Of a stretch of DNA of 64,000 nucleotides, positions 47,692 through 56,472 are shown piece by piece. This DNA comes from Ignavibacteriota bacterium (GTDB taxonomy: Bacteria; Bacteroidota; Ignavibacteria; Ignavibacteriales; Melioribacteraceae): the NCBI GenBank assembly GCA_002698995.1, contig PAAX01000020.1, positions 62,001-126,000 of the forward strand, given 5' to 3'. Within the stretch, counting starts at the first letter, position 1. Every line of letters begins with the position of its first letter. The translations under genes and the position numbers were made by a program. Below the pieces are notes generated by a model, which saw only the letters and a program-made list of their open reading frames with translations, did no database searches and was not told the DNA's origin.

Positions 47692-48831
47692 ATGAAAAAA
47701 GTACTTTCATTCTCATTAATTTTAGCTATGGTGTTTGGATTAGTAGCATTTCAATGTTCTTCAACAGAAATTACTAGTGCACGCCTTTATATACAACAAA
47801 AAAACTGGGAAAAAGCTAAAGAATCTTTAGAAAAAGAAATTTCTAAAAATCCTAAAAGTGATGAAGGATTTTATTTATTAGGTTTTGTGAATGGTGAATT
47901 AGGTGATTTTGACGGAATGCTTGCCAATTATGAAAAATCATTAGAAGTAAGTAATAAATTTAAAGAAGATATTGTAAGATCAAAGAAATTTTACTGGGGA
48001 ACTAGCTTTAATAAAGGTGTAGGATTCTTTAATAAAGCAACAAAATCTACTGATAAAGATAGCGCAAGTGTATTCTTTGATAAATCAGTTGAATCATTTA
48101 AAACCGCAATTAAAATTGCACCCGATTCATCTGCAGCTTACAAAAATTTAACTTTCTCATATTTTAATATGGGTCAGACAGAAAAAGCTATTGAACCATT
48201 AACAAAATTAGTTGATTTAACTAAATCAGCTGATTCATACTCAATGCTTGGAGAGATTTATTATAACCAAGGCGTTAAATATGCAAATCAAGAGAATGAA
48301 GAAAAATCAATGGAATACTTTAATAAAGCATTAAGCTTGCTAAAAGATGCACAAAAAGTATATCCTGATGATAAAGATATTTTATTGCTTCTTTCTAATG
48401 CATACGTAGCTACTAATAAACTTGATGAAGCAAAAGATGCTTTTAAAGCCGGTGTTGAAAAAGATCCTAGCAATCAATATTATAGATATAATTACGGTGT
48501 ATTGTTGTTGGGTGGAAACGAATTTGCTGCAGCGGAAGAGCAATTCTTAAAAGCTGTTGAAATTGATCCTGAATATACTAATGCTCATTATAACTTAGGT
48601 GTTACCTACTTAAAGTGGGGAACTGCAATGAGTGAAGAAGAAATTGCTGAAGGTGGTGAAGCAGTTCAGTATAAAGAAAAATATAAAATGGCTCTTCCTC
48701 ATTTCCAGAAATATTTAGATAAAAATCCAGAGGATTCAAAAGTTTGGGAATATTTAGGTAAAGTTTATGCAAACCTTGGAATGATGGAAGAATCTGAAGA
48801 AGCTTTCCAAAAAGCTGATCAAAATCGTTAA
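47692..48831 (+). CDS. Tetratricopeptide repeat protein, probable lipoprotein
   Basis: The 379-residue protein has a hydrophobic leader ending VAFQCSS, suggesting lipid attachment at Cys although Gln at -1 is unusual. The mature part is TPR repeats: SARLYIQQKNWEKAKESLE, GFYLLGFVNGELGDFDGML, AYKNLTFSYFNMGQTEKAIE, AHYNLGVTYLKWG and a final VWEYLGKVYANLGMMEESEE. It is a periplasmic or outer-membrane scaffold; the partner is unknown. A terminator follows. Confidence 0.85.
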   Translation: MKKVLSFSLILAMVFGLVAFQCSSTEITSARLYIQQKNWEKAKESLEKEISKNPKSDEGFYLLGFVNGELGDFDGMLANYEKSLEVSNKFKEDIVRSKKFYWGTSFNKGVGFFNKATKSTDKDSASVFFDKSVESFKTAIKIAPDSSAAYKNLTFSYFNMGQTEKAIEPLTKLVDLTKSADSYSMLGEIYYNQGVKYANQENEEKSMEYFNKALSLLKDAQKVYPDDKDILLLLSNAYVATNKLDEAKDAFKAGVEKDPSNQYYRYNYGVLLLGGNEFAAAEEQFLKAVEIDPEYTNAHYNLGVTYLKWGTAMSEEEIAEGGEAVQYKEKYKMALPHFQKYLDKNPEDSKVWEYLGKVYANLGMMEESEEAFQKADQNR

Positions 48832-48920: not shown

Positions 48921-49247
48921 ATGAATCAGAACCAAGATAACCAATCAAAACAGATCAATATTGAGTTAGGTGAAAAAGAAGCTGAAGGTATTTATTCTAA
49001 TTTAGCTATTATTACACACTCTCCGGCTGAATTTATAATTGATTTTACAAGAGTTGTACCGGGAGTTCCAAAAGCAAAAGTTCATGCACGCATTATTACT
49101 ACACCTCAGCATGCAAAAATGCTTCTTAAAGCTTTAGAAGATAATGTGAAAAAATTTGAATCGAGATTTGGAGAAATAAAAATTGATCAGCAGTTTAATC
49201 CTGCTGTCGGTTTTCCTGCAGTTAATAAAAATGAAAAAGTAAATTAA
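48921..49247 (+). CDS. DUF3467 family protein
   Basis: This 108-residue soluble protein matches the DUF3467 family: EAEGIYSNLAIITHSPAEFIIDF, written here as GIYSNLAIITHSPAEF, and a second part VPKAKVHARIITTPQHAKML. The family is common in Bacteroidota and has no known function. A strong GAGGAGAT ribosome site precedes it. The next gene starts four bases later, so the pair is probably cotranscribed. Confidence 0.85.
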   Translation: MNQNQDNQSKQINIELGEKEAEGIYSNLAIITHSPAEFIIDFTRVVPGVPKAKVHARIITTPQHAKMLLKALEDNVKKFESRFGEIKIDQQFNPAVGFPAVNKNEKVN

Positions 49248-49251
49248 TTAT

Positions 49252-52200
49252 TTGAGCAGACTATTTTCAATATTGTTTCTATTAGGTTTTTCTGCTGTTA
49301 TTACTGCGCAATCACTATCGTTTAAATATTTTTCAAGTGATGATGGATTAGCACAAAATTCAGTTTACTCTATGATTCAGGATTCCAAAGGTTATATTTG
49401 GATTGGTACCGAAGGGGGACTTTCCAAATTTGACGGATTGAAATTTACAAATTATACTAAATTAAACGGATTACCAGATAATCATATTAGAGTGGTTTTT
49501 GAAGATCATCAGAAAAATATTTGGATTGGTACTAATAAAGGGGTTGCTAAATATTCTAACAATAAATTTGAACCAAAATTTACAGAAATATTAGGCTCTT
49601 CAATTGTGTATTCTTTTAATTCTACTATTGACTCTAATATTTTTGCTGCTACTTCAAATGGCGTATTCATTATTGATACAAAAAATAAAGCATGCACTGG
49701 TATTGTTGATACTAACAATAATGCTCAATATAGAGATATAGTTAATTATTTAGGAACTACTTATTTTGCGTCAGATAGAGGTATATTTGAAAGAAATAGC
49801 AATGGAAGTTTAGATCAAATTCAATTAAATACAATAAGTGATACCATTTATACTTTGTTTACTGATTCGAATAATAATTTGTGGATTGGCACTGAAAAGG
49901 GAGTTGATGTTGTAAATTATAGCAATGATGAATATGAAATCATTAAAACCTATCCCTTTGGAAAAATATTTGAAATAACCGAAGACATCAACAATAATAT
50001 ATGGATAAGTACTTTTGAAAATGGCGTCTTTAAAGTAATTAAAAAGGAAATCAAACAATATAATTCAAGTAATGGATTATCTAGTAATGATATTACTTCT
50101 ATACTTATTGATGCTCGAGGAGACTTATGGTTTGGAACATTATACGGCGGCATTTGCAAATTAGCCGTTGAACAATTTGAAGTTTTTTCATCACAAAACG
50201 GACTTACGAACGATATAGTTTTTTCAATTAGTCAGGATAAATATAATAACATGTGGTTCGGTCATGTTGGCGATGGAATTTCGATTTACAATACTGGCAT
50301 GTTTAAAAATATTACTACTAAAGAAGGTTTAGTTGATAATAATGTTGCATCAATCTATAAATCTAAAAATGATAATTTATGGATTGGAAGCCAAGGAGGA
50401 GTTACTAAATATGATTATTCTAATTATACAACTTTTACAACTCAAAATGGTTTGGTAGATAGCTGGGTTCTTTCCATTCACGAAGATTATAAAGGGAATA
50501 TGTGGTTTGGTACTCGTGCAGGTGTTTCCAAATATGATGGACAGAAAATAATTTCTTTCAGCAGTGCTGAAGGTTTTCCTAAAGATTGGGTTTGGGATAT
50601 TTTTGAAGATAATCAAAATAGATTATGGTTTGCAACAGATGACAGCGGATTAGTTTTACTGGAGGGAAATAATTTCCGAAGATTAACTAAGGAAAACGGA
50701 CTTCCACTAAATGATGTTTTTTCAATTACTCAAGATAGATATGATAATTATTGGATTGCAACCGACGGCGGCGGATTGGTTAAGTATGATGGAAAATCTT
50801 TCCAAACAATTACAATAGAAGATGGTCTGCCGAGTAATACTTGTTACTTTTTATTTGAAGAAGGTCCTTATTTATACATTGGAACTACTAAGGGAATTGC
50901 CAGATTTGAATATTCGGCATTCGATGAAAAAGGGAAATCAGCCTTTAAAGTATATTCTAAAAAAGATGGGTTAATTTCTTCTGAAATGAATACTGGTTCT
51001 TACTTTAGAGATAAAGAAAGAAACTTGTGGTTTGGGACTGAAAAGGGAGTAGTAAAATTTAGTCCTTATCTAAAACCAAATTTAATTCCTTCTCCAATTT
51101 ATATTCATAACATAAGAATTATTGATGGAAAAAGTGAAATTGATACAACTGTAAATTCAGAACTAAACTTAGAGTACGATCAGAATAGTATTAGGTTTGA
51201 TTATATAGGCATATCATTTGCATCGCCCGAAAATATGATTTATAGTTACATTCTAGATGGCTCCGATCAAAAATGGACTGAAACAATTGAACATTCGATA
51301 ACATACAGATCACTTTCTCCTGGAAGTTACACATTTAAAGTTAGGTGCAGAAATAGTGACGGTATATGGAGTGAAAGTGCTGATTTAATTATAATAATAT
51401 CTCCTCCTTTTTGGCAGACTTGGTGGTTTTTGTCTGTTGTTTCAATATTAATTTTATCCTCTATTTATTCTTTTTATTTATTGAAAACAAATCAAGTAAA
51501 AAGAAGAAATATTGAATTAGCAAATATGGTTCGATTACGCACGAGAGAACTTGAAACAGAAAAAAATAAATCCGATGAACTGCTTTTAAATATTTTACCG
51601 GTTTCGCTGGTTAGGGAATTAAAAGAAAAAGGATCTGTTCAACCAAGAGAATTTAAAAATGTTACTATTCTTTTTACCGATTTCAAGGAATTTACTTATA
51701 CAGCGTCTGTTCTCCCGGCTGAGGAATTAGTAAAAGAATTGAATGAAATCTTTTTGGGATTTGATAATATTATTGAACAAAATGGATTAGAAAAATTAAA
51801 AACAATTGGGGATAGTTATATGGCAGCGGGTGGACTTCCGCAAGAAGCCGAAGACCACGCAATAAAAGTTGTGAATGCTGCAATTGAAATGCAGGAGTTA
51901 ATTAAGGAAAGAAATAAAAACTCCGCTATTAAGTGGGATATGCGTGCCGGCATTCATTCGGGAAATGTTATTGCCGGAGTTGTTGGAACTAAGAAGTTTA
52001 CTTACGATATTTGGGGTGATACCGTTAATATCGCAAGCCGAATGGAAAGTTCGGGTGAAGCAAATCAAATTAATATTTCTGCTTATACATATATGCTTGT
52101 TAAAGATTATTACGATTGCGAATACCGAGGAAAAGTTGACGCAAAAGGTAAAGGCAAAATTGATATGTATTTTATTAAAGAAAGAAAGAATAATATTTGA
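49252..52200 (+). CDS. Two-component-type propeller sensor fused to class III adenylate cyclase
   Basis: This 982-residue transmembrane sensor has a signal peptide (to about TAQS), about a dozen Reg_prop propeller repeats of the form ...GNIWIGTNKGVAKY..., a Y_Y_Y domain (SYTFKVRCRNSDGIWS near 700), one membrane helix (about 722-744), a coiled coil with a LLLNILP motif (about 777) and a C-terminal class III cyclase. All catalytic residues are present: metal Asp810 and Asp854, adenine-specifying Lys850 and Asp919, and Asn926/Arg930. Lys/Asp at the specificity positions indicates cAMP rather than cGMP. TTG 49252 is the start; no ribosome site is seen, so coupling to the DUF3467 gene is likely. 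Confidence 0.9.
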   Translation: MSRLFSILFLLGFSAVITAQSLSFKYFSSDDGLAQNSVYSMIQDSKGYIWIGTEGGLSKFDGLKFTNYTKLNGLPDNHIRVVFEDHQKNIWIGTNKGVAKYSNNKFEPKFTEILGSSIVYSFNSTIDSNIFAATSNGVFIIDTKNKACTGIVDTNNNAQYRDIVNYLGTTYFASDRGIFERNSNGSLDQIQLNTISDTIYTLFTDSNNNLWIGTEKGVDVVNYSNDEYEIIKTYPFGKIFEITEDINNNIWISTFENGVFKVIKKEIKQYNSSNGLSSNDITSILIDARGDLWFGTLYGGICKLAVEQFEVFSSQNGLTNDIVFSISQDKYNNMWFGHVGDGISIYNTGMFKNITTKEGLVDNNVASIYKSKNDNLWIGSQGGVTKYDYSNYTTFTTQNGLVDSWVLSIHEDYKGNMWFGTRAGVSKYDGQKIISFSSAEGFPKDWVWDIFEDNQNRLWFATDDSGLVLLEGNNFRRLTKENGLPLNDVFSITQDRYDNYWIATDGGGLVKYDGKSFQTITIEDGLPSNTCYFLFEEGPYLYIGTTKGIARFEYSAFDEKGKSAFKVYSKKDGLISSEMNTGSYFRDKERNLWFGTEKGVVKFSPYLKPNLIPSPIYIHNIRIIDGKSEIDTTVNSELNLEYDQNSIRFDYIGISFASPENMIYSYILDGSDQKWTETIEHSITYRSLSPGSYTFKVRCRNSDGIWSESADLIIIISPPFWQTWWFLSVVSILILSSIYSFYLLKTNQVKRRNIELANMVRLRTRELETEKNKSDELLLNILPVSLVRELKEKGSVQPREFKNVTILFTDFKEFTYTASVLPAEELVKELNEIFLGFDNIIEQNGLEKLKTIGDSYMAAGGLPQEAEDHAIKVVNAAIEMQELIKERNKNSAIKWDMRAGIHSGNVIAGVVGTKKFTYDIWGDTVNIASRMESSGEANQINISAYTYMLVKDYYDCEYRGKVDAKGKGKIDMYFIKERKNNI

Positions 52201-52259
52201 TTTCGTGATTTACAACATTACATTCGTGTGATATCGATTACAATCCAATAATATACATA

Positions 52260-52323: not shown

Positions 52324-53256
52324 ATGAAAAAGTATATACTAATTTTAACCTTGTTGTTGGCTTCTGTTATGTCCGCGCAACCATATACGGTAAATTATCA
52401 GTTAAATGTAGTTGATCCTTGCACTAATTCAAATTATACAGCTTTAACCGGTCAATTTAATGCTGGTGAATCATTTACTGCAGATCTTACTAATTGGTCA
52501 ATTCCTAATTCCTTATTACCATGGGAAGATTTAATAAAATTCTTTGACGGCTCAGTTTGGTCTTTAGATGAATGTGCAATAAGTGAAAATCTTCAATTAG
52601 CAATTAATATAACAAAATTAAATTGCGGTACTGAGAATGATTATGATTATGATGATCCATTATTCTTCTATGTTGAAGTAGCTGTAATCGGTCAGAATTC
52701 CGGAGTTACTCCTGTTGATCAAGATTACATGTTTAATTCAGGCTGCTTTGCAACTTTGGATATTCCGATTACACCTGAAAAAATAGCTTTATTAACCGAA
52801 CTAGATATATCAATTGCTGATATTGCATGTGCATATTACTATGCCGGAAGCGGATGGACAAGTTCGGGAATGTCTTGGACTATTGAAAATAATACTCTTT
52901 CTTTACAGTTAAGCCATTTTTCAAAATTTGGCGGTGGAAAAGGAACATTAGTTAGTTCAGTTGAAAGTGAAGAAGTTATAAATCAGATTCCTTCCAAATT
53001 TAATCTGGACCAAAATTATCCTAATCCTTTTAATCCAACAACAAACATAAGATATACTTTACCCACCGAAGGGGAAGTAACATTAAAAGTGTATAATACA
53101 TTGGGCGTTGAAGTTGAAACTTTAGTAAAAGGATTAAAACCTGCCGGTACTTATGAAATCAAATTTAATGCAGATAACATGCCTTCGGGAATATATTTTT
53201 ACGAGTTAAGAATGAACAATAATTCATTAACAAGAAAAATGTTATTAGTAAAATAA
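52324..53256 (+). CDS. Secreted protein with T9SS type A sorting domain
   Basis: The 310-residue protein has a signal peptide (to about VMSAQ), a middle part with five cysteines, among them DPCTNSNY, DECAIS and NCGTEND, that may form disulfides, and a C-terminal sorting domain beginning DQNYPNPFNPTTNIRY and ending RKMLLVK. The middle domain is not recognised. It should be exported by Sec and then T9SS. AAAGGAGA is the ribosome site. Its own promoter and terminator make it a single-gene unit. Confidence 0.85.
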   Translation: MKKYILILTLLLASVMSAQPYTVNYQLNVVDPCTNSNYTALTGQFNAGESFTADLTNWSIPNSLLPWEDLIKFFDGSVWSLDECAISENLQLAINITKLNCGTENDYDYDDPLFFYVEVAVIGQNSGVTPVDQDYMFNSGCFATLDIPITPEKIALLTELDISIADIACAYYYAGSGWTSSGMSWTIENNTLSLQLSHFSKFGGGKGTLVSSVESEEVINQIPSKFNLDQNYPNPFNPTTNIRYTLPTEGEVTLKVYNTLGVEVETLVKGLKPAGTYEIKFNADNMPSGIYFYELRMNNNSLTRKMLLVK

Positions 53257-53290: not shown

Positions 53291-53316
53291 GACCGCACTG
53301 TGTGCGGTCTTTCTGT
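53291..53316 (+). terminator. Intrinsic terminator
   Basis: GACCGCAC (53291-53298) pairs with GTGCGGTC (53302-53309), loop TGT, followed by TTTCTGT. It covers the GTG at 53300, which argues against a start there for the next gene. Confidence 0.85.
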
Positions 53317-53338
53317 ATATAATCACATCGAGGAGAGA

Positions 53339-55030
53339 ATGAAAAACAAAATGTTGCAATTTTTTATTTTGTTGTTAGGATTAATATTTCTAACACAATG
53401 TATCGATACTCCCAAAGAAGTTGTAGCTCCTAAATGGGATGTTGAAATAAATCTCCCTGTCAAAAAAGATAGATTTACTTTGGCAGAAATTATTGATTCG
53501 TCAAATAACGCAAATATAGGAATTCTTGATTCATTAGAATTTCAGGATGGAACGTCAATAACGGGAGATAGTCTTTATTTTCTATTTGTTCAAGACTTGG
53601 AAGCAAATAGTACAATACAGGATACTTTAAGAATTCCTGTTTCTCTTGCACCTGATACATTAGATTTGTCTGGGTCCTCCAGCGGAGGTGTAATCACTAA
53701 CGCTATAATTTATAATCCCGATCCGGAGTATCACTTAATTGAAGCACAATTTAGATCAGGTTCATTTGATATTAGATTAGTAAACAGTTCGGCATTCCAA
53801 GTTGAATATGAAATTATAGTCCCGGGATTTAAAAGAAAATCCGATGGTGCATTGATGCAGGATGTTGGAACTATTGCTGCTAATACTGCTTCAAGAATTA
53901 GTTTTCCTTTAGCCGATTATAACTATAAAGAATTACCGGTAGCAGGTATTAATGATCTTTTTAATTATTCGGTTCAAGCTACACAAGGCTTTTTCTTTGT
54001 TGGAAAAGTTAGAGCTTCCGGTTCTGTTAATGTAGACTTTATTTCCGAAATTAATAATGACGATATTACTTTATCAAAATTAGTTGGAAGAATCAAAACT
54101 ACTGAACTGGAATACTTCGAAGAAAATTATGAAACCGGATTTGGAAATGATATAAAGAACTTTGAAGAATCTATTAGATTCAGAGATACTCGTCTTGCAA
54201 TTAGAGCCAGAACTAGCGGGGAAATGAAAAATCTAAAAATTGTAATGGATTCACTCACGGTTGTAGGATTTGATAAATCCGGTAATCAACTGCTTCCAAT
54301 TACTTTTGACGGTAAAAATTATTTTAAAGATTCATTGACTGCAGGTATAGGGTATTATAACGTATTTAATCAACATAATACCAATCTCAACGACCTTTTT
54401 CTTAAACTACCAGATGTAATTAGAGTTGGAAATAGATTTATTCTTAAGAAGGGGGATGAGGCTGAAGAAAATCAAACTATTTCAGACAGCGATAGTATTC
54501 ATTTTAGAGCAAACTTGTTCGCACCGTTAATTGTTTCAATGTTAAATGCAACTTATGCAGATACGGTTACTTTGTTTGATTCATTTGGTGAAGATGGAAT
54601 TTTTTCTGACGATGCTAAGAAGGAATTAAATAAAGGTAATTCTGCAAAATTATCCTTGGATATAACAAATATGATTGCTTTAGGAATGACAGTTATTACA
54701 CAAATCGTTGATCAAAATTATAACCAATTATTTGCGCTAAAGAATGCATCCGGACAAAGCTCATTAGTTATTCCTTCTGCAAACGTTAATGATGATGGAG
54801 TACCGATTAGTCCCGGACTTTCAGATGGTTTAACTCTTCAATTAACTAAGGAAGAAATAAATTTATTACTAGATCAGGGTAAGTATGTAATAATTAGTGT
54901 TGCTTTCAATTCTACCGGTAGTTCTGGAAATACATTTGGCCCCTATGCAAGAGTTAGGGCAAAGGACTATATAGATTACCGTCTTTATGGTCAAGTTAAT
55001 TACAGAGTTGATCCTGATAGCGAAAATTAA
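53339..55030 (+). CDS. Uncharacterised outer-envelope lipoprotein
   Basis: The 563-residue protein has a leader ending LIFLTQCIDT, a likely lipobox with Gln before Cys. ATG 53339 is chosen because AGGAGAG lies just before it and an earlier GTG falls in the terminator. The mature part is mainly beta by composition, with Ig-like or jelly-roll-like segments, and no motif is recognised. Its TAA overlaps the ATG at 55030, and the next gene begins right there, so the two are coupled and likely act together at the outer membrane. Confidence 0.75.
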   Translation: MKNKMLQFFILLLGLIFLTQCIDTPKEVVAPKWDVEINLPVKKDRFTLAEIIDSSNNANIGILDSLEFQDGTSITGDSLYFLFVQDLEANSTIQDTLRIPVSLAPDTLDLSGSSSGGVITNAIIYNPDPEYHLIEAQFRSGSFDIRLVNSSAFQVEYEIIVPGFKRKSDGALMQDVGTIAANTASRISFPLADYNYKELPVAGINDLFNYSVQATQGFFFVGKVRASGSVNVDFISEINNDDITLSKLVGRIKTTELEYFEENYETGFGNDIKNFEESIRFRDTRLAIRARTSGEMKNLKIVMDSLTVVGFDKSGNQLLPITFDGKNYFKDSLTAGIGYYNVFNQHNTNLNDLFLKLPDVIRVGNRFILKKGDEAEENQTISDSDSIHFRANLFAPLIVSMLNATYADTVTLFDSFGEDGIFSDDAKKELNKGNSAKLSLDITNMIALGMTVITQIVDQNYNQLFALKNASGQSSLVIPSANVNDDGVPISPGLSDGLTLQLTKEEINLLLDQGKYVIISVAFNSTGSSGNTFGPYARVRAKDYIDYRLYGQVNYRVDPDSEN

Positions 55031-55041
55031 TGGAGGGGCTG

Positions 55042-56472
55042 ATGAAGAAATTAAAATTAATATTAGCGGTTTTATTGTTTACATCGATATTATCTGCCCA
55101 GAGCGGAGGTTCTGTTGGAGTTACTGATGCTATATCTTCTTCTATGGGTAATACTTATATAACTAATTCAACTGGAGTATATTCAATTGGTAAAAATCCA
55201 GCAAACCTAATGTTTAGCGAAGACAACCATTTTGAGTTTGCTACTGTTCTTCCTTTCCCAAATTTTGGGGTTTATGCCGGTGCTGATTTTATGACCTTTG
55301 AAGAATTTAATTATTACTTCGGAGGGGAAGAAGTAAACGGTGAAGTTCAAGGGAGATATTTAACAGACGAAGATAAAACCAATCTTAAAAATTTATTTGA
55401 AGAAGGTGGAATTACAACAATCGGCGCTTCAATAAATTACTTCAGTTTTATGTATAAAGCTGATAAAGATATTGGTGCATTCGGATTTAGTATTTCTGAT
55501 AATTTCGGGTTTTCATTCGATTTCCCTGCTGGTATAGTTGATCTTGCCTTAGAAGGAAATCCAATTGGAAGCGTTTATAGTTTTGACGGTGCTCATGTTA
55601 GAGCTTCTTATTACAGAGATTATACTCTTTCCTATGCAAGAGAGTTTACAGATTTATTTGACGGAACTTTTGAAATGTTCTCTGTCGGACTCTCAATGAA
55701 AATTATACAAGGTTTTGCTTACATAGAAACAGAAAGAATGAATTCCTCAATTGAAACTGGTCCAAACAGCCAATTAATAACTAAAGGAGATGTTTTAATT
55801 CATTCAGCATTTTCATCTGACTTTGGAGTTGAGTATGATTTTGATTCAACAGATGTAGGTGAGAGTAATGTTTCTCCATTTCCAACTCCTGCCGGAAACG
55901 GTTTTGGAGTGGATTTAGGTTTTGCTGCTAAGTTAGATGATATTTGGACTTTTGGATTAGCAATTACTGATATAGGAAGTATTAATTTTACTGAAAGAGT
56001 TGCCGAGTATAAATCCGATAAAGCTCTTATTCTTGAAGATATATCAAATCAAGAAGAGAGAGATTCATTGTCAGAAGTTTTAAAAGGAGAAGGAAGCTTA
56101 GTAGATGAAGTATCTTCTGCTCTACCCACTGCATTAAGAATGGGAGCTTCTGCTAGGATTGATAAATTAGTCGGTCAATTTCCCGGAACGCTTTTAGTCG
56201 CATTAGATTACAATCAAGGATTCAACAACAAAATCAGAAATTCAACCACACCAAGATTTTCTTTAGGTGCAGAATGGAGACCTTTTGCAAGCTGGCCAAT
56301 TAGAACCGGTTTTTCATTTGGAGGAAGAGATGGAGCTGCTTGGTCTTTAGGTACCGGAGTTGATTTTGGAGTTCTTGAAATGAATATCTCTGCATTTAGA
56401 TTTGGAAATCTGCTGGCTGCAAATAATGCAAGCAAGTTTTCAGTTGCGTTTGGATCAAGATGGAAATTCTAA
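55042..56472 (+). CDS. DUF5723-like outer-membrane protein
   Basis: The 476-residue protein starts with a signal peptide (MKKLKLILAVLLFTSILSAQS) from ATG 55042, preceded by GGAGGGG. An ATG at 55030 would lie in front of that site. The motif SMGNTYITNSTGVYSIGKNPAN is of the kind found in barrel proteins of the DUF5723/PorV type, and the C-terminus ends in SVAFGSRWKF with a final aromatic. A beta-barrel is expected. It is coupled to the upstream lipoprotein. Confidence 0.7.
   Translation: MKKLKLILAVLLFTSILSAQSGGSVGVTDAISSSMGNTYITNSTGVYSIGKNPANLMFSEDNHFEFATVLPFPNFGVYAGADFMTFEEFNYYFGGEEVNGEVQGRYLTDEDKTNLKNLFEEGGITTIGASINYFSFMYKADKDIGAFGFSISDNFGFSFDFPAGIVDLALEGNPIGSVYSFDGAHVRASYYRDYTLSYAREFTDLFDGTFEMFSVGLSMKIIQGFAYIETERMNSSIETGPNSQLITKGDVLIHSAFSSDFGVEYDFDSTDVGESNVSPFPTPAGNGFGVDLGFAAKLDDIWTFGLAITDIGSINFTERVAEYKSDKALILEDISNQEERDSLSEVLKGEGSLVDEVSSALPTALRMGASARIDKLVGQFPGTLLVALDYNQGFNNKIRNSTTPRFSLGAEWRPFASWPIRTGFSFGGRDGAAWSLGTGVDFGVLEMNISAFRFGNLLAANNASKFSVAFGSRWKF

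Follow-up and report, generated by a model that had tools for sequence, protein, structure and literature searches.

The open reading frame at 49252..52200 (+) of the window (the whole 64-kb stretch of DNA analysed, 64,000 nucleotides) encodes a 982-aa receptor, in which Reg_prop and Y_Y_Y domains, a membrane helix, an S-helix and a class III cyclase succeed each other (ORF, Pfam, AlphaFold2 model). From its residues, we infer that this protein is probably an adenylyl cyclase of the homodimeric inner-membrane type, which would dimerize and convert ATP to cAMP. Bacteroides Reg_prop/Y_Y_Y sensors are known glycan readers acting via histidine kinases, and cAMP signalling in Bacteroidota is little studied. 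If the family described here is true, Bacteroidota would gain a receptor that answers to the periplasm with cAMP and whose layout is comparable to that of animal receptor guanylyl cyclases.

Domain organization of the receptor

The gene starts with a TTG codon, 4 bp past the stop of the DUF3467 gene. All parts of the protein are encoded on the + strand. A signal peptide, MSRLFSILFLLGFSAVITAQ (49252..49311), was read by eye; the AlphaFold2 model has a helix at residues 2-14 of the N terminus. Two seven-bladed Reg_prop beta-propellers follow (residues 21-603; 49312..51060; Pfam and fold match to 4a2l), then a Y_Y_Y domain (51097..51399; residues 616-716 according to the model, 656-716 according to Pfam). 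An unbroken helix (residues 724-781; 51421..51594; AlphaFold2 model and sequence) comprises the membrane helix (about 724-744) and the S-helix coil, which carries the R-T signature and has NILP at its end. The class III nucleotidyl cyclase domain (residues 797-976; 51640..52179) was delimited by Pfam, phmmer and alignment. Reg_prop (2.9e-55, 10 stretches), Y_Y_Y (9.7e-17, residues 656-716) and Guanylate_cyc (1.7e-55, 187.9 bits for a cut-off of 21.9, residues 797-976) were all matched in this frame by Pfam, each far above its cut-off. The periplasmic Reg_prop/Y_Y_Y module, membrane helix, coiled coil and class III cyclase proposed by the first-pass annotation are thus all present, in the order claimed.

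The AlphaFold2 model (single chain, 24 relatives as input; mean pLDDT 86.1, pTM 0.69) has 14 four-stranded blades, a Y_Y_Y sandwich (616-716) and a cyclase (799-978); the coil (750-781) is of low confidence in this single-chain model. Residues 21-719 resemble the periplasmic part of BT4663 (PDB 4a2l; Foldseek E 1.1e-49; VIA Z 40.2, 678 residues, 4.7 A), a heparin/heparan sulphate sensor according to that PDB entry. The receptor belongs to the Reg_prop/Y_Y_Y periplasmic sensors: both domains exceed the Pfam cut-offs, a membrane helix follows them and the fold is that of a solved member. Two other assignments were rejected. The protein is not a hybrid two-component system (HTCS): Pfam finds only the cyclase after the membrane helix, and no histidine kinase, receiver or HTH. 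It is not PorZ of the T9SS: NF052228 scores 88.3 bits against a cut-off of 260, and only the propeller fold is in common.

Catalytic domain and predicted nucleotide specificity

Alignment to mammalian adenylyl cyclases, in which the roles of the six positions concerned are established, assigns D810 and D854 to metal binding, K850 and D919 to adenine recognition, and N926 and R930 to the transition state. The first-pass annotation had claimed full catalytic residues and the Lys/Asp pair of adenine specificity; all six residues are there and are invariant in a 25-sequence alignment of relatives. The class III assignment is given by Guanylate_cyc above its cut-off and by both metal Asp and the transition-state Asn/Arg on a single chain; the adenylyl type is predicted from the purine-selecting pair, K850 and D919. 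Judged by these residues, one chain holds both half-sites, like homodimeric class III enzymes; a homodimer would therefore have two active sites.

Guanylyl cyclases carry Glu and Cys at the positions of K850 and D919. The invariance of this adenine-selecting pair across the 25 sequences makes it very improbable that the enzyme is a guanylyl or dual-specificity cyclase with cGMP as messenger, even though its catalytic fold is equally close to those of receptor/rhodopsin guanylyl cyclases and of bacterial adenylyl cyclases (6sir, rhodopsin guanylyl cyclase: Z 28.5, 181 residues, 1.5 A; 5o5k, bacterial adenylyl cyclase: Z 27.5, 214 residues, 1.9 A) and its coil is that known from receptor guanylyl cyclases (PMC1592074). 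The protein could also be catalytically silent or constitutive, with propellers serving adhesion or scaffolding and not sensing. The version found at the same locus in G004 has no propellers and keeps the membrane helix, coil and cyclase; this 381-residue protein indicates that the cyclase can exist without the sensor. The catalytic residues and coil register are nevertheless kept in divergent propeller-bearing relatives, and a silent or constitutive protein is considered unlikely. The adenylyl cyclase reading is retained below.

Linker between membrane and cyclase

Linker length was measured in 68 propeller-cyclase fusions between two explicit anchors, the juxtamembrane motif (PPFW or its equivalent) and the NILP proline. 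It is 66 residues in 45 of them, 73 in 18, 80 in three, 87 in one and 62 in one. The helix from membrane to cyclase thus has exact heptad steps (66, 73, 80 or 87 residues) in 67 of the 68 proteins. The receptor carries VRLRTRELE, whose R and T are invariant (15 close relatives), as found in S-helices. The S-helix is a coil of about 40 residues that precedes an output domain, bears an ERT signature and is present in sensor kinases and receptor guanylyl cyclases; the latter lose activity when it is deleted (PMC1592074). Among designed phytochrome-cyclases, two constructs that are seven residues apart are both light-activated (PMC5995499). The simplest reading of the linker is a continuous parallel coiled coil passing on rotation or tilt. 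With its exact heptad steps, the linker offers a ready guide to how sensor-cyclase chimeras can be built and tested.

The tree of cyclase domains requires 19 gains or losses of propellers, at least six of which are forced by strong branches. A single origin of the architecture is not supported by this tree. Because the fusions are scattered on it (at least six strong-branch changes), many of them are probably independent; as far as sequences tell, the fusion probably arose several times. The same seven-residue register is the only one in 22 of the 23 groups of the tree.

Distribution of propeller-cyclases and related outputs

The nearest named records belong to Melioribacteraceae and Ignavibacteriales (Bacteroidota). 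Propellers and cyclase are found in one frame in 36 of the best 80 named loci, mostly from Bacteroidota; these 36 include Flavobacteriales, Bacteroidales, Saprospiraceae and two Treponema. Two similar sequences come from Acidobacteria. Of 395 genomes drawn evenly from the phylum, about 17 have a full Y_Y_Y-to-cyclase match among the matches listed. The architecture is widespread in Bacteroidota and is no peculiarity of this genome. No paper dealing with Reg_prop or the two-component regulator propeller together with adenylate cyclase was found among the open-licence papers searched; propeller-cyclase receptors are apparently a sizeable, undescribed family.

The source genome (4.23 Mb, 36 contigs, about 100% complete) encodes 13 Y_Y_Y proteins: 10 with a histidine kinase end, which agrees with the earlier statement that this module is common to histidine kinases, two with a SpoIIE phosphatase and one, the receptor, with a cyclase. 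Two further class III cyclases are encoded, both being receiver-cyclase proteins. A receiver-cyclase gene lies 770 bp ahead of a Reg_prop histidine kinase gene, with one small gene between them (L002, L021; G000:C32:98038-103941); in this pair, the same sensor type possibly drives a cyclase by phosphotransfer. Elsewhere (L020, L006; G000:C15, about 10.8-15.0 kb), a Reg_prop histidine kinase gene is divergent from a Crp-type regulator gene; this kinase is the protein of the genome closest to the receptor.

Gene neighbourhood and occupation of the slot

The genes flanking the receptor lie on the + strand. The conserved upstream neighbours encode a TPR protein whose N terminus, read by eye, is lipoprotein-like (47692..48831), and a DUF3467 protein (48921..49247). 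Downstream are the genes of a secreted protein with a T9SS type A sorting domain (52324..53256; TIGR04183 43.1 bits, cut-off 23), of a conserved lipoprotein-like protein outside known families (53300..55030) and of a weakly PorV-like DUF5723 outer-membrane barrel (55030..56472). Across genera of family f1, and also in f2, the genes keep this order: TPR, DUF3467, receptor, T9SS-sorted protein, lipoprotein, DUF5723 barrel and, on the opposite strand, LptG/LptF. Since about 140 T9SS-sorted proteins are encoded in the genome, the proximity of the receptor to one such gene is weak evidence.

The DUF3467 gene is present in 58 of the 58 genomes searched, practically always in a single copy, so that the slot following it could be surveyed. 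The receptor occupies it in about 11 genomes of f1, of which three have it at a contig end and one lacks the propellers, and in three f2 genomes. The propeller-less receptor (L209, G004:C1:8911-9891) is found in a smaller genome; a 381-residue membrane helix-coil-cyclase is left. In 18 f1 genomes, the slot contains instead a four-gene cassette whose last gene encodes a CHASE2 adenylate cyclase (CHASE2 3.1e-54) and which also encodes a FecR protein and an 817-residue barrel; in G002 and G009, this cassette is directly ahead of the lipoprotein and barrel genes. Four f1 genomes have neither. No cyclase was found in the slot of f3 genomes in this survey of 58 genomes. In one f3 genus (L188, L190, L193, L211 from G057, G056, G053, G055), the slot holds another cassette, the first genes of which encode about 450, 250 and 260 residues.

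On a FastTree tree of nine syntenic proteins, receptor and CHASE2 states of the slot are interleaved (7 changes; after collapse of nodes below 0.9, still 4 or more). The two cyclase types do not strictly exclude each other: G013, G014 and G022 have a CHASE2 enzyme elsewhere and a Reg_prop enzyme in the slot, and the exchange is therefore not strict. The slot may be a place where some receptor cyclase is wanted, or a convergent junction that merely tolerates insertions. A serious possibility along the latter line is that the receptor is an adenylyl cyclase with an output unrelated to its neighbours, its position being a safe insertion site between convergent genes and the Crp-type site described below being read by an Fnr-like or other non-cAMP regulator. 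The slot does lie where genes converge (DUF3467, with LptG following on the opposite strand) and accepts different cassettes. Against such an unrelated output, both common occupants are cassettes with a membrane adenylate cyclase, and families f1 and f2 keep the gene order.

Candidate operator downstream of the receptor

The 123-bp region between the receptor and the T9SS-sorted gene contains a Crp-type palindrome, TGTGATATCGATTACA (52227..52242), 81 bp ahead of the start codon of the latter. The same region contains TGTGATTCAGGTTACA, TATGATTATTGTCACA, TATGATTTTTGTCACA, TGTGATTTAAATAACA, TGTGATAAGTGGTACA and TGTGATTTGTGATACA in relatives; spacers and flanks differ. In divergent genomes, 5 of 10 such regions have TGTGA-N6-TCACA with no more than one mismatch (two of the five, G016 and L069, being close kin), and 8 of 10 have it when two are allowed; about 0.06 sites would be expected in these regions (37 per Mb x 1,536 nt). 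When 13,312 dyads were compared with no pre-selection, it came third, after two patterns made of A/T only; among the 10,816 dyads with at least two G/C per half-site, it came first (5 regions, versus 2 for the runner-up).

No Crp-type site was found in the control regions upstream of the TPR gene, at the promoter head (0 of 24 genomes). The window has no excess of TGTGA-N6-TCACA (21 sites versus 29.6 in shuffled sequence); genome-wide, no clear enrichment was found, either in total (44 sites versus 40 in the reversed control) or in intergenic regions (15 versus roughly 7-14 expected). The operator claim rests, for this reason, on conservation at one locus. The only perfect site of the genome (C31:68249-68264, G000) is ahead of the gene of a 1187-residue T9SS-sorted protein. 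Other intergenic Crp-type sites are located ahead of a succinate dehydrogenase membrane subunit-like gene and of flagellin-like genes (L282, C28:3773; L275, C18:81005).

The site also bears on the unrelated-output reading. Some relatives without the receptor still have Crp/Fnr-type sites ahead of the same T9SS gene, so that the site need not serve the receptor. Ahead of the CHASE2 cassettes, TGAT-N4-ATCA is the core that ranks first among 3,328 dyads (5 of 18), and the sites are partly Fnr-like (TTGAT-N4-ATCAC). Opposed to this, conservation of the TGTGA half-site operator is highest in the presence of the receptor. The nearby candidate operator would offer a direct readout for signalling by the receptor.

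Candidate regulators and possible signal shut-off

The first-pass annotation had seen no cAMP-binding regulator in the window; no cNMP-binding protein was found within these 64 kb, and seven are encoded elsewhere in the genome, about five of them Crp/Fnr-like. The search for Crp/Fnr regulators and for sites near T9SS genes was positive on both sides: these approximately five proteins and the palindrome at 52227-52242. L004 and L006 have cNMP and Crp-type HTH domains and a recognition helix S-R-E-T-x-x-R, which we take, from E. coli Crp, to read TGTGA; we also take Ala-Asp to stand in them in place of the cAMP contacts Thr127-Ser128 of E. coli Crp, which counts against the route proposed below. 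The proteins nearest to L004 are Crp proteins from Thermus and actinobacteria.

In some relatives from named Bacteroidota (L078, L080, L092, L093, L106, L122), the C-terminal 220 residues, after the cyclase, form an HD domain (YHGxHHTxDV...HDxGF; 9e-5 to 4e-7 in four scanned relatives). It is plausibly a cyclic-nucleotide phosphodiesterase; such receptors would possibly combine synthesis and breakdown of the cyclic nucleotide in one chain. The only relative of this HD domain in the genome is fused to PycTM (4.5e-35). This protein (L149:1405-2667; G000:C10:15362-15880), with HD and a Pycsar-type PycTM membrane domain, is encoded beside PAP2, SixA and NUDIX, with no obvious defence island.

Proposed signalling route

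A periplasmic ligand or partner would bind the twin propellers and alter the posture of the Y_Y_Y pair. This change would travel via one membrane helix and the register-locked parallel coiled coil (S-helix), which would set the angle between the two catalytic domains and hence the conversion of ATP to cAMP in two active sites. cAMP would act via a regulator of the Crp family, whose gene lies elsewhere in the genome, on the candidate operator directly downstream of the receptor gene, which would control the genes of the T9SS-sorted protein, the lipoprotein and the DUF5723 barrel. We infer the direction of the signal, its ligand and the cAMP-responsiveness of the operator's regulator. A link between the receptor and the control of neighbouring genes is proposed tentatively. 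The wider scheme, a Melioribacteraceae envelope locus with interchangeable Reg_prop/CHASE2 receptor cyclases that have their own outer-membrane partners and drive the adjacent T9SS-sorted and outer-membrane genes via cAMP and Crp, is possible and rather doubtful. If true, a complete outside-in cAMP circuit would be encoded side by side.

Comparison with known systems

Like the hybrid two-component sensors of Bacteroides (BT4663, 4a2l), the receptor has a signal peptide, two seven-bladed propellers, a Y_Y_Y domain and one membrane helix; unlike them, its output is a class III cyclase and not a histidine kinase, receiver and HTH, and phosphotransfer parts are absent. CHASE2 adenylate cyclase cassettes likewise place a membrane receptor cyclase beside TPR and outer-membrane proteins, in the same slot in 18 relatives; their enzyme differs by its CHASE2 sensor, its multi-pass membrane part and its distant subtype (catalytic domain 37% identical over about 178 residues). 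In Campylobacterota, a cluster with CHASE2 cyclases next to FecR, TPR and phosphodiesterase genes is already known (PMC9239204). In the receptor's own order, response regulators of the receiver-cyclase type (L041-L045) share the S-helix and cyclase unit (54-61% identical) and differ by a cytoplasmic receiver domain and the absence of propellers and membrane helix. Single-pass receptor guanylyl cyclases such as GC-A, the atrial natriuretic peptide receptor, have the same layout: an outside sensor, one membrane helix, an S-helix (PMC1592074) and a class III cyclase. The phmmer match spans residues 752-976 (1.9e-38). Unlike GC-A, the receptor has no kinase-homology domain, its sensor is unrelated and its residues predict ATP, not GTP, as substrate.
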